Shown piece by piece: positions 23,311 through 36,171 of a stretch of 64,000 bases of DNA (position 1 is the stretch's first letter; each line of letters starts with the position of its first letter). The position numbers were made by a program, and so were the translations under genes. The notes below the pieces were generated by a model. It did no database searches and was not told where the DNA came from. It saw only the letters and a program-made list of their open reading frames with translations. Origin of the DNA: Phycisphaerae bacterium (lineage in GTDB: Bacteria; Planctomycetota; Phycisphaerae; UBA1845; Fen-1342); assembly GCA_017999985.1 (NCBI GenBank), contig JAGNKU010000008.1:124001-188000 (forward strand). The letters are read 5' to 3'.

Positions 23311-23339
23311 TTGTTCGCGCGTGGGCCCAGTGGTAGACT
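23311..23339 (+). promoter_or_regulatory. Candidate promoter for the dockerin-like secreted protein
   Basis: TTGTTC, 17 bases, TAGACT, about 115 bases upstream of ATG 23455. Confidence 0.5.
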
Positions 23340-23454
23340 GAAACCATCGTCGGAGGTTCACGGCCCGTCGGGGTGGACGGGATGTGCCGGTCACCTCACA
23401 GTTCGCATGGCGCGATCTTCGCGGGCGGTTCCACCAGGCGAAGGAGGTGTCAGC

Positions 23455-24840
23455 ATGTCGCGCAACCACGTCGCGCTCAGTGGGATGGTGGTCGGACTGG
23501 TGCTCGGCGCAGCACCGGCGGACTCCGACGTGCGCGGGGACTCCGGAGCCTGCTGCTACAGCGATGGTGAGTGTCGTGTGCTTCCAGCGGAGAGGTGCGC
23601 CACGCTCGTGGGTGACGTGAACTGCGATGACGACGTCGATCTCGCCGACGTCAACCCGTTTGTCAATTTGCTGTCCGGGGGGAGCGCGCCGGATTGCGCC
23701 TGGGCGAACGCCGACTGCAACCGCGACGGCGCGCTAAATTTCAGCGATATCAACCCGTTCGTCATGGTGCTCGTCCAAGACAGCCGGCTGACCGGGGCGT
23801 TCCTCGGCCCCGGCACGGATTGTGACCCCAATCCTTGTGTGCTGCCCGGCGACACGTGCGCCAATGCGAAGATCATCACGGGCGAGCCGTACACGGACCT
23901 GGGCAGCACGTGCGGCTATACCGACGACTATGACGAAAGTTGCCCCTTCAACCAGCCCGGCGCGCCGGACGTCGTCTACAGGTACGCGCCCGCGTGGGAC
24001 ACCGTCGTGGATATCACCCTTTGCCTGGCTGAAACCGACTACGACACCAAGCTGTATGTCTACGAGGGTGAGTGTCCCGGGAACCTGATTGCGTGCAACG
24101 ATGACGCTTGCAGCACCGCGTCGCACCCGGCGGCGTTTGTATCCAAGCTATCCTGGGTGTTCCTCCAGGCCGGACATACCTACTACATCGTCGTGGATGG
24201 CTATGGCGGCGCTTGCGGCACGTATGAACTCCTGCTGATCCCGCCGCCTCCGTGCGTTGTCCCTTGTCCGCCGGGCGCGCTCGAGGAGGGTGAGCCGTGC
24301 GGGACAGACACGAATGGCGGCTGTGGGCTGAATCCGCCGGCCTACGGTCTGATCTCCGACGGCCAGACCGTGTGCGGCACGAGCTACTACGACGGCAACT
24401 TGCGCGACACGGACTGGTATCGCATCGAGGTCGAGCCCGGCGACCGGGTCCTGTACGGCATCACGGTCCAGGCCGAGTTCGACGTGCAAGTCATGTTCAT
24501 CCGGGACGACGGGGAGGATTGCACGGGCCTGGAGATCTACTACGCCGAGGGCGCACCTTGCCAGGAGGTGTTTCTCGCGACCCCGCCCGCACCGACCTCG
24601 ATCGACTACATCTGGATCGCTCCGCAGTTCACCACCCCGTTCGCGTGCGATGACGAGCACAGTCATTACTGGGTCAACGCGGTCTTCTACGCGTTCGACC
24701 CGCCGCCGGGGGCCTGCTGCATCGATGGTGTCTGCCACGACTACCTGACCATCTGGGAGTGTGCGGACCAGGGTGGCACCTGGATGGGGTACGAAGTGCC
24801 CTGCACGCCAGAGCTGTGCCAGCCGGCGGCGCCGCAGTAG
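23455..24840 (+). CDS. Secreted protein with dockerin-like calcium loops
   Basis: 461 residues, with a strong AAGGAGGT six bases before the ATG and an N-terminal signal peptide. GACCYSDGECRVL near residue 30 and a related GACCIDGVCHDYL motif near the C-terminus are Cys-rich repeats typical of planctomycete secreted proteins. GDVNCDDDVDLADVNPF and NADCNRDGALNFSDINPF (about residues 55-110) are paired EF-hand-like dockerin loops. Two beta-sandwich-like segments follow (about 140-290 and 300-430). It may be a surface or adhesive protein; no catalytic motif is seen. Confidence 0.85.
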   Translation: MSRNHVALSGMVVGLVLGAAPADSDVRGDSGACCYSDGECRVLPAERCATLVGDVNCDDDVDLADVNPFVNLLSGGSAPDCAWANADCNRDGALNFSDINPFVMVLVQDSRLTGAFLGPGTDCDPNPCVLPGDTCANAKIITGEPYTDLGSTCGYTDDYDESCPFNQPGAPDVVYRYAPAWDTVVDITLCLAETDYDTKLYVYEGECPGNLIACNDDACSTASHPAAFVSKLSWVFLQAGHTYYIVVDGYGGACGTYELLLIPPPPCVVPCPPGALEEGEPCGTDTNGGCGLNPPAYGLISDGQTVCGTSYYDGNLRDTDWYRIEVEPGDRVLYGITVQAEFDVQVMFIRDDGEDCTGLEIYYAEGAPCQEVFLATPPAPTSIDYIWIAPQFTTPFACDDEHSHYWVNAVFYAFDPPPGACCIDGVCHDYLTIWECADQGGTWMGYEVPCTPELCQPAAPQ

Positions 24841-24895: not shown

Positions 24896-25023
24896 TGACG
24901 CGACTGACGCAGTGGCATATAGGGTGCATTGTCCGGGCGCCGCTCCAGCCGACTCGAGGACCAGACCTGCGTCCGGGAGACTGCACGAGGCAGGCCGCGT
25001 ATTTGGGAAAGGTCGGTGGGACG

Positions 25024-25782
25024 ATGATTCTGGCCAAACTGTGGCGCTCGCTGCGGGCCCAGCTCAACAAGCTCGCGAATGCATTTTGGACGGCCGATCC
25101 GATCGCGCAGATGCAGTATGAATACGATCTGGCGGTCGCGCAGCTCAAGGAGGGGCGCGAGGGGCTCGAGCAGTACCGCGCGCTGGTGGAGCGCGTTTCC
25201 CGGCAGGTGGCGAACGATCAACAGCACGTCGCCAGCCTGGAGGCCAAGATCAAGGCCTACCTGCAGGCGGGCGACCGCGAGACGGCGGCCAGGTTTGCCC
25301 TGGAGCTCCAGAAGGCGAAGCAGCAGTACAGCGAGAACCAGGAGCAGCTCAAGCTCCACGAGCAGTCGTACAACAACAATCTGACCAAGATCAAGCACGC
25401 CAGCGGCAAGCTGGCCCGGGTGCGCGAGAAGATCCAGAAATACGACGCCGAGCTGAAGATGAGCCGGGCCGAGGCCGAGATGGCCAAGCTCGCGCGCGAT
25501 TTCAACTTCGACGTGACGACGGACTTCGGGCAGATCGAGCAGGTCATCCAGGAGAAGATCAGCCTGAACCGTGCGAAGGCCCGCGTGGCGGCCGACCTGT
25601 CGAGCGAGGGCGTCGTCGAGGTCGAGCGCGAGCAGGCGATGGAAAAGGCCCTGGCGGACCAGGCGCTGCGCGAATTCGAGATCCAGGCCGGGCTGGTCAC
25701 GCCCGAAACCGCACCGGTCGCCGAAGCGGCCAAGGAACTCGGGCCCGCGGCCAAAACGACGCAGTCCCAGGGCCAGGTATGA
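25024..25782 (+). CDS. PspA/IM30 (Vipp1) family protein
   Basis: 252 residues, nearly all long amphipathic helices with heptad-like coiled coil, beginning with the membrane-binding helix ILAKLWRSLRAQLNKLANAF. ADPIAQMQYEYDLAVAQLKEG matches the start of helix 1 in PspA/Vipp1. These ESCRT-III-like proteins polymerize on the inner membrane during envelope stress. It is the first gene of a same-strand cluster, 37 bases before the AAA+ gene, a pairing often seen for PspA and AAA+ partners. The acidic/Ala-rich tail is probably flexible. Confidence 0.9.
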   Translation: MILAKLWRSLRAQLNKLANAFWTADPIAQMQYEYDLAVAQLKEGREGLEQYRALVERVSRQVANDQQHVASLEAKIKAYLQAGDRETAARFALELQKAKQQYSENQEQLKLHEQSYNNNLTKIKHASGKLARVREKIQKYDAELKMSRAEAEMAKLARDFNFDVTTDFGQIEQVIQEKISLNRAKARVAADLSSEGVVEVEREQAMEKALADQALREFEIQAGLVTPETAPVAEAAKELGPAAKTTQSQGQV

Positions 25783-25819
25783 GTGGCGGCCCGGCCCCTG
25801 ACCAGACGAGCACCCCCGC

Positions 25820-27571
25820 ATGAACCGGCAGATGGCACTTCCGGAGACATTTCCCCCGTGGGCGCAGGCCCTCGCGGAGGCCTACTTCTCCGGCACCACC
25901 TGCGTGTTCATCCTGCACGGCAATGTCCACGACCTGATCGCCGGCCCGGAGGGAGCGCGCACCGCGTATTGCGGTCTGACGGAGTTCCTGGCCAGCCAGG
26001 TGTTCGGCTCGTGGGACATCGTCGTGCAGTACGACCTTTCGGGCGGCCTGCGGGCCCAGCCCGGGACCGACGCGCAGCGCCTGCAGGCCATGATGCCTTA
26101 CCTGACAGCACGACTCGGCGATCCGGGCGCCTGGCCGCGCGAGCCGGACAGCGCGCTGCTCCTGCTCGACCGGCTGATGGAGCGGAACCTGCTGGAGAAC
26201 GACCCGGCGCGGCAGAAAAGCATTGGCATCCTGCTCGACTATGCCCAGTACCTGGTCCCGGCGGCTGAGCCCGGCGCCCAGCCGCGCGGGGTGAGCACGA
26301 ATGTCGTGCGGCTGCTGGGGTGGGCCCAGAACCCGTACATCAAGCGGGTGAACACCGCGATCTGCCTGGTTGCCGACAAGCTGGCGGAAGTGAACGATCG
26401 CCTGGTGCAAAGCCCCCACGTCGCGACCATCGAGATCCCCATGCCCGAGCGCGCGGCGCGCGCCGCGTTCATCGACTGGGCGGCGCGGGGCGCGCGGCTG
26501 GAAGCGCTCGCCGATTTCACGTCGGCCGAACTGGCGGAGGTGTCCAACGGCTTGAGCCTGGTGGGCCTGAACCTGCTGCTTTCGCAGGCGCGCCAGAGCG
26601 GGCGGCCGGTGGATCGCGCCCGGTTTCGCGCGCTCAAGAAGTCCATGATCGAGCGGCAGGGCCAGGGATTGCTCGAGTTCATCGAGCCCAACCACACGCT
26701 TGACATGCTTGTGGGGCAGGACGCCGCCAAGCAGCGCCTGCGCGAGGACGCGGAACTGCTGCAGCACGGGCGGCTGGAAGCCGTGCCGATGGGGTACCTG
26801 ATCGCGGGGGCCGTGGGGACGGGCAAGTCGTTTCTGGCCGAGTGTTACGCCGGCTCGATCGGCATTCCCTGCGTGAAGCTGCGGAATTTCCGCTCGAAGT
26901 ACGTGGGCGAGACGGAGGGCAATCTCGAGCACGTGTTGACGGTGCTCCGCTCACTCGGCCCGGTGGTCGTGGTGATCGACGAAGCCGACGCGGCCCTGGG
27001 CAGCCGCAGCGCCGAGGGCGACTCGGGCACGTCCAGCCGCGTCTTCTCGATGATTGCGAGCCAGATGGGCGACACGCGCTACCGCGGGCGGATCGTGTGG
27101 ATGCTGCTGACGTGCCGGCCGGACCTGCTGCCCATCGACCTGAAGCGGCAAGGGCGGGCCGAGGTGCACATCCCGCTCTTCTATCCGCAGGATGACGCCG
27201 AGGTCCAGGCCATGCTGACTACCATGGCGCGCAAGAACAAGATCACGCTCGCCACCGACACGCTGCCGGCCGGCCTGGCCGCGCGACAACTCAGCGGCGC
27301 GGACATCGAAAGCGTGGTGCTCGAAGCCCGGCGGCGGGCGCTGGCGGCGCGGCGCGACGATGTCAGCGGTGCCGATCTGGATGCCGCGTTGGCGGATTTC
27401 ATCCCCTCGGTGCAGGGGCTGGAGAAGGAGCTGCAGGAGCTGGCGGCGGTGCTGGAATGCACGCAGCTCCAGTTGCTGCCGCCGGCCTGGCGGCAGCGCG
27501 TCATGCCGCCGAACGGGCGCGTGCAGCTGCAGGAGCGCCTGGTGGCGATTCGACAGCTGATCGAGGCTTGA
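25820..27571 (+). CDS. Tandem AAA+ ATPase with a degenerate first module
   Basis: 583 residues. The C-terminal AAA+ module (about 295-500) is complete: Walker A AGAVGTGKS, Walker B VVVIDEADAALG, sensor-like LTCRPD and the SGADIESVV lid. The N-terminal region (about 15-240) looks like a second AAA+ fold whose P-loop is missing, but which keeps a Walker-B-like strand (GILLDYAQYL) and a sensor-1-like TAICLVADKLAEVND. It lies between PspA and a TerB-like gene, so remodelling of PspA assemblies is the likely job. That role is inferred. Confidence 0.85.
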   Translation: MNRQMALPETFPPWAQALAEAYFSGTTCVFILHGNVHDLIAGPEGARTAYCGLTEFLASQVFGSWDIVVQYDLSGGLRAQPGTDAQRLQAMMPYLTARLGDPGAWPREPDSALLLLDRLMERNLLENDPARQKSIGILLDYAQYLVPAAEPGAQPRGVSTNVVRLLGWAQNPYIKRVNTAICLVADKLAEVNDRLVQSPHVATIEIPMPERAARAAFIDWAARGARLEALADFTSAELAEVSNGLSLVGLNLLLSQARQSGRPVDRARFRALKKSMIERQGQGLLEFIEPNHTLDMLVGQDAAKQRLREDAELLQHGRLEAVPMGYLIAGAVGTGKSFLAECYAGSIGIPCVKLRNFRSKYVGETEGNLEHVLTVLRSLGPVVVVIDEADAALGSRSAEGDSGTSSRVFSMIASQMGDTRYRGRIVWMLLTCRPDLLPIDLKRQGRAEVHIPLFYPQDDAEVQAMLTTMARKNKITLATDTLPAGLAARQLSGADIESVVLEARRRALAARRDDVSGADLDAALADFIPSVQGLEKELQELAAVLECTQLQLLPPAWRQRVMPPNGRVQLQERLVAIRQLIEA

Positions 27572-27662
27572 CCGCGGGCGGCGCGTGGGGCGCACGCGTC
27601 GGGCCGTGCCTCGGCTTGGGAAATACAGTGGTCCGATGAGAGGACGCCTTGAGGGAGCGGCC

Positions 27663-28046
27663 GTGAAAAAGACCAAGAAGACCGTGAAGAAGGTGGCGCC
27701 GCGCAAGGCCGCGCGGCCTGTCCGGAAGAGCAAACCCCAAGCGGCACGCTCCAAGCCGGCGCGCCTGAGCTGGCTTGACGAAACCGGCACCACACCGCAG
27801 ATCGACAGCTATGCCCGCAAGCTGCGCACCTTCATGGCGGCGCTGGCAGACGGCATTGTCGATGACGCGGAAGTGGCGGCGCAGGAGCAGCGGCTCGTGA
27901 AGCTGATGAAAGAGATCGAGCCGGAACTCTCGGCCACGTTACACGGACGGGTCACGGAGCTGTTGTGCGAGTTGACCGCGTACGACATCATGCGGCTGCT
28001 GCACGCGATGCACGCCACGCGGCCCAAGCACGTCTTCCGTGGTTGA
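27663..28046 (+). CDS. Small basic protein with TerB-like helical domain
   Basis: 127 residues from GTG 27663, with GAGGGAG upstream. ATG 27636 is an alternative start adding nine residues. The first 45 residues are Lys/Arg/Ala-rich. The rest is helical and contains MAALADGIVDDAEVAAQEQR, resembling the acidic metal-binding helix pair of TerB-like proteins. The match is by eye and tentative. It sits 16 bases before the VWA gene, and TerB-like plus VWA neighbours are a known combination in Ter/Psp stress systems. Confidence 0.55.
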   Translation: MKKTKKTVKKVAPRKAARPVRKSKPQAARSKPARLSWLDETGTTPQIDSYARKLRTFMAALADGIVDDAEVAAQEQRLVKLMKEIEPELSATLHGRVTELLCELTAYDIMRLLHAMHATRPKHVFRG

Positions 28047-28062
28047 AAGGCAGGTGCCACCG

Positions 28063-28857
28063 ATGGCCAAGCGAACGCTGGCACGGCGCCCGCGGGTTGG
28101 CGCGCTCATGATCGCCGGCCTGGGGGCCCTGATCCTGTCGGCCGGCTGTGAGCAGAGCCCGCCGCCGCGCGCGCCCAGTGCCGCCGGCGGGGCTGTGGCG
28201 GGCGCGCCGCGCGGGGCGCGGACGATCAACCTGCCGCAGGTCGACCAGCGGCTGTGCACCGCGGTGGTGCTGCTGATCGACACATCCGGCAGCATGTCGC
28301 AGAACGTGCCTGACTCCGGCGGCACCCAGCGCCCCAAGCATGTGATCGCGCGCCGGGCGCTGGAAGGCATCGTGGACTACACGGCCGACTGGCAGCAGGC
28401 GCACACCGATCGGGTACTGCAGCTCTCCATTTGCCACTTCAGCAGCGCCGTGCACAAGCTGCTGCCCATGGGTGTTTTCCAAGCGGAGCAAGCGCGGTCC
28501 GCCGTCCGGAAGCTCCCCGGACCCGGGGGCGGCACGGCAATCGGGCAGGCCCTGGAGGCCGGGTTCAAGGCGCTGTATGCCTCCGGCTGTGTCCGCAAGT
28601 ACGTCGTCTGCATTACGGATGGCGAAAACACCGTGGGACTGCCGCCCGACCGCATCGCACGGCAACTCTTCGCGCAGACCGGCGGCGAGGTCGAGATTCA
28701 CTTTGTCGCGTTTGACACGTCAGCCGCACAGTTCGCGTTCCTGAAGTCCGCGAACGGTGCGGTGGTCGAAGCGGCCGATGGGGCGCAGTTGCAGGCGCGG
28801 TTGGCCGAAATCTATGAAAAACGGATCCTGGCCGAGGCCGCCGCCGAACAGCAGTGA
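28063..28857 (+). CDS. VWA-domain lipoprotein
   Basis: 264 residues with a lipoprotein signal peptide (LILSAGC, lipid Cys near residue 29). From about 65 to 240 it is a von Willebrand factor A domain with an intact MIDAS: DTSGSMS, later GGGTAIG and ITDGENT. It should bind a partner through a divalent metal on the periplasmic face. It lies inside the PspA-ABC cluster and probably links envelope components. No protease or kinase motif is seen. Confidence 0.88.
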   Translation: MAKRTLARRPRVGALMIAGLGALILSAGCEQSPPPRAPSAAGGAVAGAPRGARTINLPQVDQRLCTAVVLLIDTSGSMSQNVPDSGGTQRPKHVIARRALEGIVDYTADWQQAHTDRVLQLSICHFSSAVHKLLPMGVFQAEQARSAVRKLPGPGGGTAIGQALEAGFKALYASGCVRKYVVCITDGENTVGLPPDRIARQLFAQTGGEVEIHFVAFDTSAAQFAFLKSANGAVVEAADGAQLQARLAEIYEKRILAEAAAEQQ

Positions 28858-28947
28858 CGGCGGGGCCGGGCGGTCGCTGCGCCTGGAAGGTGTGCAGCGC
28901 GTGAGACACAATGCGGCTTCAAGGCAAACACAGCAGGGAGAAAGGCC

Positions 28948-30714
28948 ATGGCGGGACAGCCTAAGATTCCGTTCTATATCGCACTTGGCGTGGTGATCAT
29001 CGGCCTGATCGGCTTCGCGCTCTATCGCAGCGACATCCTCGCGCCGCAGGGGGCGCGGGAGGGCGGTGCCGCCCCGGTCGCGCCGGTGGCGACCCCGACC
29101 GGCGAGACCGCGTCCCAGCAGCCCGCTGGCACCGGCCCGGAGGCCGCCGACGCGGCCAGCGTGACGACGGTCAAGGAATACAAGTTCACCCCCGCCGAGC
29201 GGTTGCCGGAAGTGAAGGGCATCTCGGCGTACAAGCCGCTGGCCGACGAGACCGTGCGCTTCGCGCTGAACGTCTGGGCCGGCTGGGCGCCGATCATCCA
29301 GGCGAATGACGGGTTCAAGGCCGGCAAGGTCTGGAAGACGCCGGACGGGAAGTCCTTCAAGGTCGAGCTGGTCCTGATCGACAACCCGGTGGCGATGCGC
29401 GACGCGTACGCGGCGGGCGACGTGCACATCGGGTGGGCGACGCTCGACATGGTGCCGCTGTTCCTGGAGGGCTTCGTGGACGCCGGCGGCAAGCCGCGCG
29501 ACAGCCGCGTGATGCCGCGGATTTACCAGCAGGTTGACTGGTCCAACGGCGGCGACGGCATTGTCGTCCGCGACGTGATCAAGACCGTCGCCGACCTGCG
29601 CGGCAAGAAGGTCGCGCTGGCCCAGAACTCGCCGTCGCACTATTTTGCGCTGAACATGCTCGTCGCGGGCGGGGTGCAGCCGAGCGAAGTCAACATGGTC
29701 TTCACCGAGGACGCGTTCCAGGCGGCGGCCGCGTTCAACGCGCAGAAGGACATCGCGGCGGCCGTGTCGTGGGCGCCGGACATCTACAACCTCGAGAAGG
29801 TGCGGGGCAATCGGCTGCTGGTCACGACCGCGACCGCAAACAAGCTGATCGCGGATGTGTGGTTCGCGCGGGCGGATTTTGCGAAGGACCATCCGGGCAT
29901 CATCGAGGGCCTGGTGCGCGGGATTTTCGACGCGATGCAGGCGCTGCACGATGAGGATGTGAAGAAGCATTGTGCCGAGCTGATGGGCCAGGGCTACAAC
30001 ATCCCGCCCACGGAAGCGTTCAACATGTTCGGCGACGCGCACAACACGAACTGGGCCGAGAACTTCCAGTTCTTCATGAACCAGAACAACCCGACGAACT
30101 TCGAGCGCGTCTGGAACCAGGCGTATTACCTCTACCGGCGGATCGGGGCGATCCGGCACCAGCCGGTGTCGTTTGACAGCGTAATGGACTTCTCGCTGAT
30201 CGCGAAGCTGGGCGGGGAAGAGAAGTACGCGTCGCAGAAGGACGAATACGAGATCCAATTCGCGCCCCGGACCGTGAGTGAGATCCGGGCCGAGGACGAG
30301 ATTCTCACGAACACGGTCGTCATCCACTTCTTCCCGAACAGTTGGGACCTGGCGAAGACCGTCACGCGCCAGAAGGACGGCAAGAGCGTCGAAGAGCTTT
30401 ACGATCCCACCGTGGACCTGGTGCTCGAAGAGGTCGCCAAGCTCGTCGGGCAGTTCGGCGCCGCCCGCATCGTCATCGAAGGGCATACCGACAGCTCGAT
30501 GAAGGGGCAGGTGACGCCCAGCCTGGTCAAGGAGCTCTCGCTCAACCGCGCCAACGCCGTGAAAGAGGCGCTGGTCAAGAAGTACAAGCTCAACCCCAAC
30601 CAGTTCGGCGTCGAGGGGCTCGGCTGGGACCGGCCGGCGGATTCGCAGGACCCGACCAACCACGCCAAGAACCGGCGCGTCGAGATCAAGGTCTACCCGG
30701 CGGAGAGGGCCTAG
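28948..30714 (+). CDS. SsuA/NMT1-type solute-binding protein fused to OmpA domain
   Basis: 588 residues. An N-terminal membrane helix (about 9-27) and a short Pro/Ala linker precede a periplasmic binding domain of the nitrate/sulfonate/taurine (NMT1/SsuA) type (about 85-400; NVWAGWAPIIQANDGF, AGDVHIGWATLDMV, GKKVALAQNSPSHY). An OmpA peptidoglycan-binding domain follows (about 445-585; IVIEGHTDSS, LSLNRANAV, NRRVEIKV). The permease and ATPase of the transporter follow directly. The fusion would tether the binding protein both to the inner membrane and to the cell wall, which is unusual for an ABC importer. Confidence 0.88.
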   Translation: MAGQPKIPFYIALGVVIIGLIGFALYRSDILAPQGAREGGAAPVAPVATPTGETASQQPAGTGPEAADAASVTTVKEYKFTPAERLPEVKGISAYKPLADETVRFALNVWAGWAPIIQANDGFKAGKVWKTPDGKSFKVELVLIDNPVAMRDAYAAGDVHIGWATLDMVPLFLEGFVDAGGKPRDSRVMPRIYQQVDWSNGGDGIVVRDVIKTVADLRGKKVALAQNSPSHYFALNMLVAGGVQPSEVNMVFTEDAFQAAAAFNAQKDIAAAVSWAPDIYNLEKVRGNRLLVTTATANKLIADVWFARADFAKDHPGIIEGLVRGIFDAMQALHDEDVKKHCAELMGQGYNIPPTEAFNMFGDAHNTNWAENFQFFMNQNNPTNFERVWNQAYYLYRRIGAIRHQPVSFDSVMDFSLIAKLGGEEKYASQKDEYEIQFAPRTVSEIRAEDEILTNTVVIHFFPNSWDLAKTVTRQKDGKSVEELYDPTVDLVLEEVAKLVGQFGAARIVIEGHTDSSMKGQVTPSLVKELSLNRANAVKEALVKKYKLNPNQFGVEGLGWDRPADSQDPTNHAKNRRVEIKVYPAERA

Positions 30715-30786
30715 CGCAGCGCATGGCGCGCCAACTGCCGGCGTCGATGGCTGGCACTGAAGCCGGGGTGCCCCGCCCGGATATCG

Positions 30787-31875
30787 ATGGGGCGTGAATG
30801 GAGCATGATGGATCAGCAACCAGCGAATCCAGCCGCGGGCCCCGGCGCCCCGTCCGAGACCCCGGCCGGTGCTGTGCCCGCGGATGCCCAGAACGTCGTG
30901 GCTGCGCCGCCGCCGACCCCCGTCGCGCGCCGCCGCGCGCGGCCGTTCTTTGCCCTTCGCCGGACCATTCCGCGCTGGCAGGCCGCGCTCAGCGGAGTGC
31001 TGGGCGTGGCCATCTGTTTGGGCGCGTGGTGGTTTGTGACGCGGGGCGAACCGGAGAGTCGCCTGCTCGGGCCGACGGTCCTGCCCAGCCCGCTGGAGAC
31101 GTTCAAGACTTTTCCTACGCTGTGGTTTGACCGGGCGCTGACCCGCAATACGCTGGTCACGCTCAAGCGCGTGGCGCTCGGTTTTGCGCTGGCGGCACTG
31201 ATCGGCGTGCCGGTCGGCGTGCTCTGCGGATGCTTCAGCCGGATCGCGGCGCTGCTGGCGCCGTTGACGCTGGTGGGGCGCAACATTCCCGTCGCCGCCC
31301 TGATTCCGCTCACGTTTTCGCTGTTCGGCATCGGCGAGCTGCAGAAGGTGATGTTCATCTTCATTGCGTGCGTCGCGTTCGTGATTTCTGACACCGCGGG
31401 GGCCATCGCGGACATCGGCGGCCAGTACCTCGACACCGCGTACACCCTCGGGGCCAGGCGTCGGCAGGTCGTGCTCAAGGTGCTCGTGCCGCTGGCGCTG
31501 CCGAGCGTGTTCAATTCGCTGCGCGTGCTGTTCGGGCTGGCATTTGGCTACATCATGCTCGCCGAGCTGGTGAAATTCGGCGGCGAGGCAGGCGGCCTCG
31601 GGGACATCATCATCACCTCGCAGCGCCGCGGCCAGCGTGAGCACATCCTGCTCGTACTGATGATCATTCCGCTCGTTGCGCTGGCGCTGGACCGGTTGAT
31701 CTACGCCGTGCAGCGAAGCCTGTTCCCACACCGCTACGGTGGCGCCGGCCTGCTGTGGAAACTGGTGTGCGTTGTCCTGCACGGCTGGGAGTGCTTGAAA
31801 GGCATTTTCTGGAAACCCGCGGACGTCGAGCCGCTGCCGGCCGGACCCGGTACCACAGTGGGGCCACGCCCATGA
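30787..31875 (+). CDS. ABC transporter permease, SsuC/TauC-like
   Basis: 362 residues. A Pro/Ala-rich cytoplasmic N-terminus of about 60 residues is followed by six or so membrane helices with the BPD_transp_1 coupling motif GARRRQVVLKVLVPLALPS. It is the membrane channel of the importer served by the upstream binding protein. The stop overlaps the ATPase start by four bases (ATGA), indicating translational coupling. ATG 30805 or 30808 could be the real start, because GGAG lies just before them. Confidence 0.9.
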   Translation: MGREWSMMDQQPANPAAGPGAPSETPAGAVPADAQNVVAAPPPTPVARRRARPFFALRRTIPRWQAALSGVLGVAICLGAWWFVTRGEPESRLLGPTVLPSPLETFKTFPTLWFDRALTRNTLVTLKRVALGFALAALIGVPVGVLCGCFSRIAALLAPLTLVGRNIPVAALIPLTFSLFGIGELQKVMFIFIACVAFVISDTAGAIADIGGQYLDTAYTLGARRRQVVLKVLVPLALPSVFNSLRVLFGLAFGYIMLAELVKFGGEAGGLGDIIITSQRRGQREHILLVLMIIPLVALALDRLIYAVQRSLFPHRYGGAGLLWKLVCVVLHGWECLKGIFWKPADVEPLPAGPGTTVGPRP

Positions 31876-32774
31876 CCACGAATTCCACCCAGCCCGCGCC
31901 CGCCGCCGCGGCGCCCACCCACACCGTCGGCATGAGCCAGGTCCTGGAGCATCCGCGCACCGCGGCAGATGTCGTCCGGCCTCCGGTGGTGGAGTTCCGC
32001 AACGTCACGAAGACCTATGGCGCCGGCGGCCCCAAGCCCTACACCGCGATCAAGGAGGTGACCTTCGTCGTCGAGGACTTGCCGAACAAGGGCGAGTTTG
32101 TCTGCGTACTGGGGCCGAGCGGCTGCGGGAAGAGCACGATCCTGCGGCTGATTGCCGGTTTGGAGCCGCAGCATCCGCCGACGAGCGGCACGGTGCACGT
32201 CCAGGGTGCGCCGGTCGTGGCGCCGGGGGCGGACCGGGGCATGGTGTTTCAGGACTACACCAGCTTTGACCACCGCACGGTGCTGGACAACGTGGCCTTC
32301 GGTCTGGAATGCCGGGGCGTGCCGCGCCGGCCGCGCTACGAGCTGGCCCGCTGGTGGATTCGGCGGGTCGGGCTGCGCGCCGCCGACGAGGGCAAGTACC
32401 CGCACGAGCTGTCCGGGGGCATGCGTCAGCGCGTAGCGATCGCCCGCACGCTGATTCTCCGGCCGCGCATCATCCTGATGGACGAGCCCTTCGGGGCGCT
32501 GGACCCGCAGACCCGGATGCACATGCAGGACCTGCTGGTGGCGCTGTGGCGGGAAGTGCAGGCCACGGTGTTCTTTGTCACGCACTCGATCGAAGAGGCC
32601 GTTTTTCTTGGCGATCGGGCCTACGTCATGAGCAATTCGCCGGGTACCATCTTGCGCGAGCTGGTGATCGAGCCGGCCGACCGGCCGGTCAAGGAGATGC
32701 GCCGCCAGGCGCGCTTCCACGAGACGGTCGGCTACCTGCGCGATCTGATCAGCGAGTTGGAGGAAGGCCACTGA
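31872..32774 (+). CDS. ABC transporter ATPase, SsuB/TauB-like
   Basis: 300 residues. Walker A GPSGCGKS, Q-loop MVFQDY, signature LSGGMRQR, Walker B RIILMDEPFGALD and the H-loop VTHSIEEA are all intact. An N-terminal extension of about 40 residues precedes the core. It overlaps the permease gene by four bases and is the energy-coupling subunit of that importer. The family usually imports nitrate, sulfonates, taurine or pyrimidine precursors; this substrate is unknown. Confidence 0.93.
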   Translation: MTTNSTQPAPAAAAPTHTVGMSQVLEHPRTAADVVRPPVVEFRNVTKTYGAGGPKPYTAIKEVTFVVEDLPNKGEFVCVLGPSGCGKSTILRLIAGLEPQHPPTSGTVHVQGAPVVAPGADRGMVFQDYTSFDHRTVLDNVAFGLECRGVPRRPRYELARWWIRRVGLRAADEGKYPHELSGGMRQRVAIARTLILRPRIILMDEPFGALDPQTRMHMQDLLVALWREVQATVFFVTHSIEEAVFLGDRAYVMSNSPGTILRELVIEPADRPVKEMRRQARFHETVGYLRDLISELEEGH

Positions 32775-32806
32775 GGCCTGACGAGCGCTGACGAGGAATC
32801 ACGACG

Positions 32807-33697
32807 GTGGAGCGCGGCGGCCCGCTGCATTTCGGCAGGTCTCTGAAGGCGGCGTTCACGCACCGCTGGAACCTGCTCGTTTTCTTCGGGGCCCTGGCGT
32901 TCGCGCTCATCAGCGGCCGTCCGGATGTCTGGGGGCCGCTCGTGCTTGCCGGCGAGTTGCTCTACGTGGGCGGGCTGGCTTCGCACCCGCGCTTCCAGGC
33001 CTACGTCGCCGCGCAGGCCGCCAAGACGGCGCGCCGGCAGGGCTCCGCGACTGCCGATGTGCTCCTGAGCCGGATCGTCGCGGCGCTGCCGCCCAAGTCG
33101 CTCCAGCGCTTCGAGGCCCTGCGTACGCGCTGCCTGGAGTTGCGGCAGCTCGCGGCGCAAATCAAGGACCCCGGCCGGGCGGGCGCGCCCGTGCCGCTGG
33201 AGGAGCTGCAATTGGCCGGCCTGGACCGGCTGCTCTGGATTTACCTGCGGCTGCTGTTCACGGAATACTCGCTCGACCGGTTCCAGCAGAAGACCGACCG
33301 CGCGCAGATCGAACGTGACATCGCCAACCTGGAAGCCCGGCTGCGGCAAACCGAGCGCATCTCCGACGAGGCCCAGCGCCAGAAGGTGCGCCGGGCGATC
33401 GAGGACAACCTGCAGACGTGCCGTGACCGGCTCGCGAATCTCCAGAAAGCGCTCGACAACTACGAGTTGGTGAAGCTCGAGATCGATCGCCTGCAGAACA
33501 AGATCTGCGCGCTCAGCGAGCTGGCGGTGAACCGCCAGGAGCCGGATTTCATCTCCACGCAGGTCGACCAGGTGGCGTCCAGCATGGTGCAGACCGAGCG
33601 GACGATGAACGAGCTGCAGTTTGCCACCGGCCTGGAGGCTGCCGACGATGCCGTGCCGGAGCTCGTCCGGCGCGAATCCGTTATCGCGAAGCGCTAG
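32807..33697 (+). CDS. Membrane-anchored coiled-coil protein, unknown family
   Basis: 296 residues from GTG 32807, 32 bases after the ATPase gene. Two hydrophobic segments near residues 22-55 (LLVFFGALAFALISG, GPLVLAGELLYVGGL) are followed by long charged helices (about 130-260) with coiled-coil character. I do not recognise the family. As the last gene of the PspA-ABC cluster it may be a membrane receptor or scaffold for PspA. This rests on position and shape only. Confidence 0.75.
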   Translation: MERGGPLHFGRSLKAAFTHRWNLLVFFGALAFALISGRPDVWGPLVLAGELLYVGGLASHPRFQAYVAAQAAKTARRQGSATADVLLSRIVAALPPKSLQRFEALRTRCLELRQLAAQIKDPGRAGAPVPLEELQLAGLDRLLWIYLRLLFTEYSLDRFQQKTDRAQIERDIANLEARLRQTERISDEAQRQKVRRAIEDNLQTCRDRLANLQKALDNYELVKLEIDRLQNKICALSELAVNRQEPDFISTQVDQVASSMVQTERTMNELQFATGLEAADDAVPELVRRESVIAKR

Positions 33698-33821
33698 CAC
33701 CGACCATGCCGCGCGACGGGGGCGGATATCCCACCCAATCCGCATGGCGCGCCCAATATAGGCGCGGCCGCTGCGAATACCCCCCCGGATGTCAACCAGG
33801 CTTGTGCAGGAGGGCGGGGTC

Positions 33822-34895
33822 ATGGCCCGCGCGTGGACGTGCTACCGACATACGGTGGTGATCTTCGTGGTTGTAGTGGGGTTCGGCCTGCCCGCACTCG
33901 TCATGCGGCCCGTGGCGCGCGCGCAGGAGACCGAGTCCCCGAGCCTCGACGCGATCAGCAGGAAAGTCGTCGTCGGCGAGATTGCCGATCTGCTCATCAC
34001 ACACCATCTCACTCCGGACGTGGGCCGCGCCTGCGCGGACCACATCCGCGCGCGGCTGGCCGACGGGGCGTACGAAACCATCACGGATCCGACGCAGTTC
34101 GCCGGCCAACTGACGCGCGATCTGCACACGGTGGACGACGACGGCCATTTGCGCGTCGAGGTCGGTCCGCCGCACGCGTTTCTCGAAGTCGACCAGATCG
34201 ACTCGGAGGAGACGCGGCAGCGCGTGTACGCCCTCTTTCGGCGCGACAACTTCGGCTTTCGCAAGGTCGAGATCCTGGATGACAACATTGGGTACCTCGA
34301 GCTGCGCCAGTTCGCGCCCCCGGAGGTCGGCGGCGACACCGCGGTTGCGGCGATGGCGTTGCTGGCGAATTGCGATGCACTGATCATCGACTTGCGCGCG
34401 AATGGCGGCGGAACCGGCGCGATGGTCCGGCTGCTCGCCAGCTATTTCTTCGATCGGCCCACGCATTTGATCAGCACGGAGACCCGCGGCGAGCCGCTCG
34501 TCACGCAATCCTGGACGCAGTCGTATGTGCCCGGCAAGCGGTTGTCCGCGACGCCGCTGTTCATCCTGACCAGCCGGCGCACCGGGTCCGCGGCCGAGGA
34601 GTTCACCTACGACCTGAAGCACCACGGCCGGGCAACCGTGATTGGCGAGCGGACCTGCGGCTCGGGGCATTCTGCCTTTCTGGCCCGGGTGGCCGACACG
34701 TTCAACGTCGTCATTCCGCAGGGCCGCCCGATCCATCCGGTGACGGGCACCGGCTGGGAGCGGGTGGGTGTGCAGCCCGACATCGATGTCGCTGCCTCGC
34801 AGGCGCTAACGCGAGCGCGCGTGGAAGCGATGAAGGTCATCCGCGCACGCGCCGGTGGGACCACCGGCAACACAGGAGAAATCCATGCACCGTGA
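33822..34895 (+). CDS. Exported S41-family peptidase
   Basis: 357 residues. A signal anchor or signal peptide (VVIFVVVVGFGLPALV, ending near ARAQ) is followed by an N-terminal helical domain and the S41/IRBP catalytic core. DLRANGGGTGAMV, the Ser in TSRRTGSAAEEF and the Lys in DLKHHGRATVIGE form the expected catalytic site. No PDZ domain is seen, so it is the IRBP-like short form. AGGAGG lies about 9 bases before ATG 33822. It overlaps the next gene by 11 bases. Confidence 0.85.
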   Translation: MARAWTCYRHTVVIFVVVVGFGLPALVMRPVARAQETESPSLDAISRKVVVGEIADLLITHHLTPDVGRACADHIRARLADGAYETITDPTQFAGQLTRDLHTVDDDGHLRVEVGPPHAFLEVDQIDSEETRQRVYALFRRDNFGFRKVEILDDNIGYLELRQFAPPEVGGDTAVAAMALLANCDALIIDLRANGGGTGAMVRLLASYFFDRPTHLISTETRGEPLVTQSWTQSYVPGKRLSATPLFILTSRRTGSAAEEFTYDLKHHGRATVIGERTCGSGHSAFLARVADTFNVVIPQGRPIHPVTGTGWERVGVQPDIDVAASQALTRARVEAMKVIRARAGGTTGNTGEIHAP

Positions 34896-36171
34896 CCTGG
34901 AGGAAATGCCCCCGACGCGCGTCGCGGCGTGGCTCATCACGCTGGCGTGCGGCCTGCAAATCGCGCTCACGCCGGCTGCCGTCGGCCAGGAAAAGGAGGC
35001 CGGACGCGCGAACGAAGCGCTGCTGCCGATCAAGAACGACCGCTTCGCGGCGGGCGGCACAGCCGAGCAGCCGATCACCGATTGGACGTTTGAGTCGCTG
35101 TCCATGGACGTGAACCCGGACGACTTCAGCAGCACGGTGCGCATCGGTCCCAGGGGCGACGCGACGATTGCGATTCCCACGGATGGTACCGGCGTCACCC
35201 TGCAGGGCACGACGGACCTGGCGCGCGGCGACCTCGTGTCCAGCCCGTGCGCACTCAAGCCTTTCCGCTGGGTCAAGGTCGGGGTTGAATACGTCGTCGA
35301 ATCCGGCGAGCCGCTGGTGTTCGTCTGCCTGCGGCCCACCAAGGACCGGTCGTTGGTCGATCTTGAGTTCCTGCCGAAGGCCGCGCCGGGCGAGAAGCGC
35401 AAGGCCTTCGTCCGCCTGCACACCGGCTCACTCGACGGCGACTACTCGATCGCCGTGTCCATCCACGGCACGGGGTCGGTGCGGTTCCTGATCGTCAAGG
35501 CGAAGGAGGACGGGGAATACCCGCGCCCCACAAGGCCGGCTGTCGTGATCGATCTGATGCACGAACGACCCGCGACGGAGGGACTGCATCGGTGGAACGA
35601 GATCTACAAGCTGGAGACCGTCTACGGTTTTCCAGCCATCCAGTTCCTGTCGTACACCGAGGTCACGCCGGCGAAGCTGAAGGCGTTGGATCCGGCGCTG
35701 ATCCTGCTTTGGCCCTATGCCGACCGAGAGCAGAACCCGGACCGCCAGAAGGTCATCGCGGCGACCCGGGCCGCGGCCCGTCATGGCGCCCCGCTGATCG
35801 GTACCGGACTGGGGCACCAGATCCTGGCGCAGGCCGAGAAGAACGTCGCGATGGATCGGGAGGTCGAAGTCGGGCCGACACGCCTCGACATCGTCGCGGA
35901 TGACCCTGTCTTCGCCGGCCTGCCGCGACCGTCGCATTTCTTCGCGGAGGAGTCGCACAGATTCATCGTGCGCGAAGTCCCGCCCGGTGCGGAGATCATT
36001 GCGAGTTCGGAGACCGTCGTGACCCAGGCGTTTCACTACACCGGCAAGCCCTGGTACACGTTTCAGCCCAACATCGAACGCGGCTGGGAGATCGCCTGCC
36101 CCGAGGCGTGCATCGTGTGGAAGAACCTGCTGCGCGGCTGGGGCCTGGCTCCGCCGGCAGAAAAACGCTGA
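34885..36171 (+). CDS. Exported protein with inactive class I amidotransferase-like domain
   Basis: 428 residues with a signal peptide (ITLACGLQIALTPAAVGQ). The middle part (about 60-210) is beta-rich and unidentified. The last 210 residues resemble a class I glutamine amidotransferase: PLIGTGLGHQILAQ aligns with the nucleophile elbow PxxGxCLGHQ, but the Cys is Gly here. ESHRFIV followed by PPGAEIIASSETV matches the His region. It is therefore probably a binding protein and not an amidase. It overlaps the S41 peptidase gene, with AGGAG six bases before its ATG. Confidence 0.7.
   Translation: MHRDLEEMPPTRVAAWLITLACGLQIALTPAAVGQEKEAGRANEALLPIKNDRFAAGGTAEQPITDWTFESLSMDVNPDDFSSTVRIGPRGDATIAIPTDGTGVTLQGTTDLARGDLVSSPCALKPFRWVKVGVEYVVESGEPLVFVCLRPTKDRSLVDLEFLPKAAPGEKRKAFVRLHTGSLDGDYSIAVSIHGTGSVRFLIVKAKEDGEYPRPTRPAVVIDLMHERPATEGLHRWNEIYKLETVYGFPAIQFLSYTEVTPAKLKALDPALILLWPYADREQNPDRQKVIAATRAAARHGAPLIGTGLGHQILAQAEKNVAMDREVEVGPTRLDIVADDPVFAGLPRPSHFFAEESHRFIVREVPPGAEIIASSETVVTQAFHYTGKPWYTFQPNIERGWEIACPEACIVWKNLLRGWGLAPPAEKR

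Follow-up and report, generated by a model that had tools for sequence, protein, structure and literature searches.

The window considered here is a stretch of 64,000 nucleotides from a Phycisphaerae bacterium (Planctomycetota). Between positions 25024 and 33697 it carries eight genes, all on the + strand, for a PspA-family protein, an AAA+ ATPase, a small protein, a VWA-domain lipoprotein, a substrate-binding protein (hereafter the binding protein), an ABC permease, an ABC ATPase and a helical membrane protein. Comparative genomics establishes that this gene set is linked, and the eight genes very probably constitute one functional system. The explanation towards which we lean is that a conserved membrane-maintenance pair, PspA and the AAA+ protein, is coupled to an importer tethered to both the wall and the membrane. 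The features are listed below with position, strand, identity and the evidence for each.

25024..25782, +, PspA-family protein (PspA_IM30), divergent subclass with an amphipathic N-terminus; Pfam PF04012, 46 bits (cut-off 33.9)
25675..25746, +, conserved C-terminal tail of PspA, FEIQAGLVTPETAPVAEAAKELGP, a candidate AAA+ recognition motif; motif counts in operon-class versus other PspAs
25820..27571, +, AAA+ ATPase with an N-terminal module of ~290 amino acids and a Cdc48/p97-like AAA domain; Pfam AAA, 75 bits, residues 327-452
~27663..28046, +, small protein called TerB-like, with an ADGxVDxxE motif; no Pfam family over its cut-off, half-TerB profile match
28063..28857, +, VWA-domain lipoprotein, an optional member; Pfam VWA_2, 45.5 bits, lipobox LSAGC
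28948..30714, +, substrate-binding protein (NMT1/TauA class) with a C-terminal OmpA domain; Pfam NMT1 and OmpA over cut-off
30787..31875, +, ABC permease of importer type; Pfam BPD_transp_1, 61.8 bits, and conservation
31872..32774, +, ABC ATPase with all catalytic motifs intact; Pfam ABC_tran, 94 bits
32807..33697, +, protein with two transmembrane helices and a long helical cytoplasmic bundle; AlphaFold model, pLDDT 89
24913..24928, +, unproven sigma54-like site, TGGCATATAGGGTGCA, 111 bp upstream of pspA; highest-scoring site in the window's pspA upstream region

Translation and Pfam searches bore out the sequence-only reading, an earlier annotation made from the letters of the window, in its description of eight same-strand genes with short gaps or overlaps: the intergenic distances range from -4 to 91 bp, the permease and ATPase genes overlap by 4 bp, and the AAA+ gene starts 37 bp downstream of pspA. 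No terminator-like sites were found between the eight genes. Pfam cut-offs were exceeded for PspA_IM30, AAA, VWA, NMT1 together with OmpA, BPD_transp_1 and ABC_tran, in agreement with the labels PspA, VWA lipoprotein, permease and ATPase that the genes had been given, and the OmpA peptidoglycan-binding domain fits the earlier description of the binding protein as wall-tethered. For neither the small nor the helical protein did any Pfam family reach its cut-off. The window's genome contains a single PspA.

With regard to conservation, the binding protein was used as query in a scan of ~85,000 species genomes, which returned 460 relatives, the named ones being from Phycisphaerae and other Planctomycetota. 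The loci of the best 80 of these 460, each taken with flanks of at most 10 kb, were read and compared with profiles for each of the eight families; order and membership were counted in the 44 loci whose flanks measured 4.5 kb or more on both sides. Seven core genes, i.e. all eight minus VWA, occurred together in 40 of the 44. The order PspA-AAA-small-(VWA)-binding protein-permease-ATPase-helical, as in the window, is the Planctomycetota arrangement and was present in 36 loci; four loci, all from Acidobacteriota, had the order (VWA)-PspA-binding protein-permease-ATPase-helical-AAA-small. Identical membership in two gene orders is stronger evidence for one unit than synteny alone, and the recurrence of order and membership in distant genomes, as judged from these testable loci, takes the cluster beyond chance. 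Among 61 close genomes, nine have a strong orthologue of the binding protein (the window's genome included). This patchy distribution spans four families; the other eight orthologues are 76-80% identical to the window's protein, and in relatives from other families the eight genes stand in the same order wherever contigs are long enough. Tree distances of the seven families correlated with r values of 0.70-0.93 over 54 loci, which is consistent with joint inheritance.

The genes are also retained where they are dispersed. The sequence-only reading had named independent occurrence in close relatives as evidence against a single system. In the window's own family, one genome (G015) indeed has PspA-AAA-small, VWA-binding protein and permease-ATPase-helical at three distant places, yet it has lost none of the eight, and this favours linkage. 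The single-contig genome G236, which is without VWA, has PspA-AAA-small, binding protein-permease and ATPase-helical at three places. In both of these, as in the split genomes G162 and G074, the gene for the helical protein lies on the same contig stretch as that for the ABC ATPase. Co-occurrence was scored in 294 genomes of the phylum, with presence thresholds on scores that were set after the lists had been seen. The AAA+ N-terminal module and the binding protein were shared by 17 genomes, with eight carrying the former alone and three the latter alone (G147, G123 and G104). For AAA+ and the helical protein the numbers were 17 shared and eight and one unpaired, and for the binding protein and the helical protein 16 shared and four and two unpaired. 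The small protein was confined to AAA+ genomes (11/11), a marginal match inside a long frame in G247 being excluded from the counts. Fisher tests, which ignore phylogeny, gave p <1e-7 for all pairs tested and p <1e-18 for AAA+ with the binding protein. In three (G068, G105 and G290) of the 11 surveyed genomes that carry the AAA+/small pair there was no strong binding-protein match, so the two halves are separable, and this suggests that the AAA+ side can function independently of the importer. PspA adjoins the pair in G105 and G290, and the only neighbour recognised in G068 is the helical protein. The earlier proposal of one envelope system is thus sustained by conserved synteny, the permuted order, co-occurrence and retention, and has to be qualified by the separability of its halves.

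The survey yielded some further observations on individual loci. One metagenome-assembled genome (CAMAWN01) holds two differing copies of the cluster on separate contigs (L060 and L062). Clusters of the Planctomycetota type were found in records titled Deltaproteobacteria or Candidatus Kuenenia stuttgartiensis (L045, L060, L067 and L086), titles that may be misassigned. A divergent relative of the binding protein-OmpA fusion, ~30% identical, lies at L028 8850-10367 (genome G035), where the AAA+ N-terminal module and the helical protein were undetected.

The PspA of the cluster stands apart from other PspAs of the phylum. Operon-class PspAs scored 29-57 bits against the Pfam model versus 114-179 bits for the 30 best-scoring other planctomycete PspAs, and both kinds coexist in some genomes. 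Beyond the PspA_IM30 domain the operon-class proteins end in a tail of the form F-E-x4-G-[LM]-x-[TS]-P-E-T, a short linker and K-x-[LMI]-G (…PETA…KELG). The pattern [KR]x[LMI]G was present within the last 35 residues of 76 of the 77 operon-class PspAs (mean 3.3 in shuffled tails) and of 0/30 other PspAs; the motif was derived from the operon class, whose sequences are interrelated and not independent, and the comparison set consists of the 30 top-scoring proteins and is not random. Several operon PspAs that are otherwise far diverged keep the tail pattern. From this distribution, the AAA+ protein or a partner of it is a candidate reader of the tail. We consider it likely that the AAA+ protein acts on the PspA of the cluster; that the tail is the recognition signal is a plausible suggestion which falls somewhat short of an even chance.

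The C-terminal half of the AAA+ protein has a Walker A (GxVGTGK), a DEAD-type Walker B, the pore loop KYVGE and a conserved C-terminal tail (66 sequences), and its closest solved chains are those of Cdc48/VCP. The first ~290 residues form a conserved module without Walker motifs, for which no credible Pfam family was found in 13 members, and a profile comparison of the first with the second module, made on non-overlapping sequence, found no similarity. The view of the first module as a dead AAA domain is thus unsupported by either analysis. The sequence-only reading had described an AAA+ ATPase with a degenerate first module; the AAA domain is indeed there, the first module is not demonstrably of AAA+ fold, and the label "degenerate AAA" would derive from what has been published on relatives. 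In the small protein, a basic disordered N-terminus of ~60 residues precedes a helical part with the ADGxVDxxE motif, and its gene lies directly downstream of the AAA+ gene in almost all loci that carry it. The TerB domain that it had been assigned found little support: Pfam TerB matched 1/60 members (E 0.012), the profile match to TerB (57% probability) covers 40 columns or half the domain, and a structure model with fold search gave no fold match. The Ter stress system has a true TerB domain, whereas here there is this weak match, and a Pfam search of the eight genes and the two downstream neighbours gave no TerC or TerD partner.

The binding protein comprises an N-terminal transmembrane anchor, an NMT1/TauA-type domain and the C-terminal OmpA domain (PDB profile matches TauA 6ssy and Omp38 3td3). 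The segments on the pocket side of its binding domain (VDWSNGGDGIVVR, AQNSPS, WAPDIYNL and IADVWFARADFA) are near-invariant in 81 homologues from two phyla, and therefore a single ligand is probably conserved. Among proteins of solved structure, its closest relatives are binders of taurine or sulfonates. The permease has the EAA-like loop DTAYTLGA, and in 71 homologues the ATPase conserves a Walker A (GPSGCGKST), a signature (LSGGMRQR) and a Walker B (DEPFGALDP). With a class-specific binding protein, a permease and an ATPase with intact motifs, the transporter qualifies as an NMT1/TauA/SsuA-class importer; it differs from known ones in that the binding protein is fused to OmpA and anchored in the membrane, and in that no NCBIfam equivalog cut-off was reached. 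The nearest models were urea/taurine binding proteins and SaoP/NtrB/TauC permeases, with scores of 76/334 bits for the binding protein, 125/295 for the permease and 209/357 for the ATPase. Lipid handling, which had been suggested for the cluster, is not supported, the binding protein and permease being of the taurine/nitrate/sulfonate class.

The VWA lipoprotein has an intact metal-ion-dependent adhesion site (MIDAS; DTSGS, T, TDG) with residues conserved in 12 homologues. Its gene is present in 8/44 loci and in more distant genomes takes other positions (upstream of PspA, after the binding protein or after AAA+), which makes it a real but optional member. Across the family the AAA+, ABC, MIDAS and OmpA motifs are intact. 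The helical protein gave a confident model of two transmembrane helices and a long helical bundle, and its fold search returned no Foldseek match better than E 0.3. CdvB2 appeared at Z 6.9 among many helical bundles, BAR/F-BAR rows of up to Z 9.3 were below the meaningful level for such bundles and were dismissed, and a profile comparison with PspA gave no match (E 0.38). A role as second ESCRT-III protein thus drew no support from the PspA and Foldseek values.

These properties can be assembled into the following working model. As its domains suggest, the specialised PspA would coat the inner face of the cytoplasmic membrane, and the AAA+ protein, a Cdc48/Vps4-like motor with a pore loop, would engage the PspA C-terminal tail and disassemble or recycle the coat, with the small protein encoded beside it as a putative adaptor. 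In the periplasm, the binding protein would be held by its membrane anchor at one end and by the OmpA domain on peptidoglycan at the other, and would feed the NMT1/TauA-class importer. The VWA lipoprotein, when present, may be an accessory partner that binds a ligand or a surface, and the two-transmembrane helical protein, which accompanies the ABC ATPase, may link this ATPase to the PspA coat. The place and time of PspA assembly could then depend on the ligand state of the importer or on the distance between wall and membrane, and PspA for its part would protect the membrane around the transporter against leaks. That the importer senses rather than merely transports is the more doubtful part of this model, and we put it forward only tentatively.

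The same evidence can be read with transport as the primary function, the wall-tethered complex of a taurine/nitrate/urea-class importer needing its own PspA-AAA+ only for local membrane protection or quality control. We regard this as rather unlikely. The completeness of the importer, a pocket side whose near-invariance over two phyla implies one conserved ligand, the nearest NCBIfam models and the three genomes in which the binding protein persists without AAA+ would all suit it. However, every equivalog cut-off was missed by far, the genes that flank the cluster in the window do not accompany it elsewhere, and the PspA-AAA-small trio is also found without the binding protein. An FtsEX-like signalling device, in which ATP hydrolysis by the ABC part reports the state of wall or membrane from the peptidoglycan-bound arm to PspA and AAA+, would explain the double anchoring of the binding protein, in the membrane and on peptidoglycan, and the persistent pairing of the helical protein with the ATPase where the cluster is split. 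Its permease nevertheless keeps importer-type features, the pocket side is conserved and there is no sign of lost transport, which leaves this alternative quite improbable. The least probable account is that two unrelated modules (PspA-AAA-small and importer-helical) share an operon by convenience or joint transfer. The separation in G015, G236 and G162, the AAA+/small pairs without a strong binding-protein match (two of them with PspA adjacent) and the patchy distribution among close relatives are in its favour; yet the split genomes keep both modules, AAA+ and the binding protein co-occur far above chance even if the p value is uncorrected for phylogeny, and Acidobacteriota hold the set in a different order.

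Several points weigh against the model of a PspA-AAA+ pair working with a tethered importer. Some genomes have the binding protein but no AAA+, more have AAA+ but no binding protein, and both co-occurrence and tree correlation leave shared ancestry in play. Neither the small nor the helical protein has a significant fold match. The tail could bind something besides AAA+. The sigma54-like site scores well in the window, yet 65 homologous upstream regions showed no enrichment, and a conserved sigma54 promoter was rejected. Finally, the interaction, the direction of signalling and the ligand are elements of the model that we infer.

Part of the gene set has been described before. Ravi et al. 2024 (mSystems, PMC11237479), in their section on Vps4 and other AAA+ ATPases, present an operon with PspA and TM-Snf7 homologues, a two-domain AAA+ whose first AAA domain is inactive, an ABC ATPase, a permease and PBPB-OmpA (example OGG56892.1), and they propose a link between remodelling and solute transport. 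As far as that section goes, the core of the set (PspA/TM-Snf7, AAA+, ABC ATPase, permease and PBPB-OmpA) is thus already published. The likeness, as drawn from the published description, consists of PspA beside an AAA+ gene and of contiguous genes for ABC ATPase, permease and OmpA-fused binding protein; TM-Snf7 is present there, and the cluster has a two-transmembrane helical protein without a PspA profile match. The main text of PMC11237479 makes no mention of a TerB-like protein, a VWA protein or Planctomycetota, and its section on AAA+ ATPases none of a PspA tail motif or of dispersed-but-retained genomes. A 2022 survey of the phyletic distribution of Psp (PMC9239133) leaves Planctomycetes, OmpA, VWA and TerB unmentioned, and in the literature on TerB/VWA/PspA operons we found no paper describing the eight-gene set. 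New as far as could be checked are therefore the membership of the small protein and, optionally, of VWA, the gene order of Acidobacteriota, the genomes that keep the genes in dispersed form, and the PspA tail. The classical Psp response (pspABC-pspF) shares with the cluster a PspA_IM30 protein and, in the window, a sigma54-like site upstream; here, in contrast, PspA is divergent and has its own tail, PspB, PspC and PspF are absent within the cluster, and the site is not conserved.

A second likeness is to ESCRT-III/Vps4 (CdvB/CdvC), in which an ESCRT-III-superfamily protein is likewise encoded beside an AAA+ motor. MIT-interacting motifs (MIM) on ESCRT-III filament proteins are read by Vps4, and the tail of the cluster's PspA recalls them. 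Vps4-type motors have an MIT domain, whereas a Pfam scan of the AAA+ protein gave no MIT match, and its nearest solved chains are Cdc48/VCP. It would be a bold and on balance unlikely extension that Planctomycetota and Acidobacteriota hold a bacterial ESCRT-III/Vps4 counterpart, in which the tail of a PspA subclass is read by its own Cdc48-like AAA+ as MIM is by Vps4, and in which a wall-anchored ABC importer sets the activity. How PspA filaments are disassembled is an open question. In many genomes the present subclass comes with an AAA+ partner of its own and with a conserved tail, so that an ESCRT-III recycling mechanism in bacteria can be tested directly, with two proteins in vitro. The link to an importer tethered to the wall further suggests a route from the periplasmic state to membrane remodelling. 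How PspA homologues without an AAA partner regulate assembly is stated as unknown in the section of PMC11237479 cited above.

With regard to the surroundings of the cluster, a defence system was considered and discarded: PADLOC gave only generic AAA, ABC and MotB-like OmpA matches. Clustering of flanking open reading frames for further conserved genes beyond the eight was swamped by shadow frames in GC-rich DNA and too noisy to inform. Directly after the cluster, positions 33789-36171 encode an S41 peptidase and then a glutamine-amidotransferase-like protein, which do not accompany it in other genomes. Upstream and outside of it, positions 23311-24840 encode a secreted protein with dockerin-type repeats (GDVNCDDDVDLADVNPFV). 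None of these flanking genes travels with the cluster, the exception being one marginal dockerin-repeat match; a repeat similar to that of the 23311-24840 protein lies near the split locus L022.

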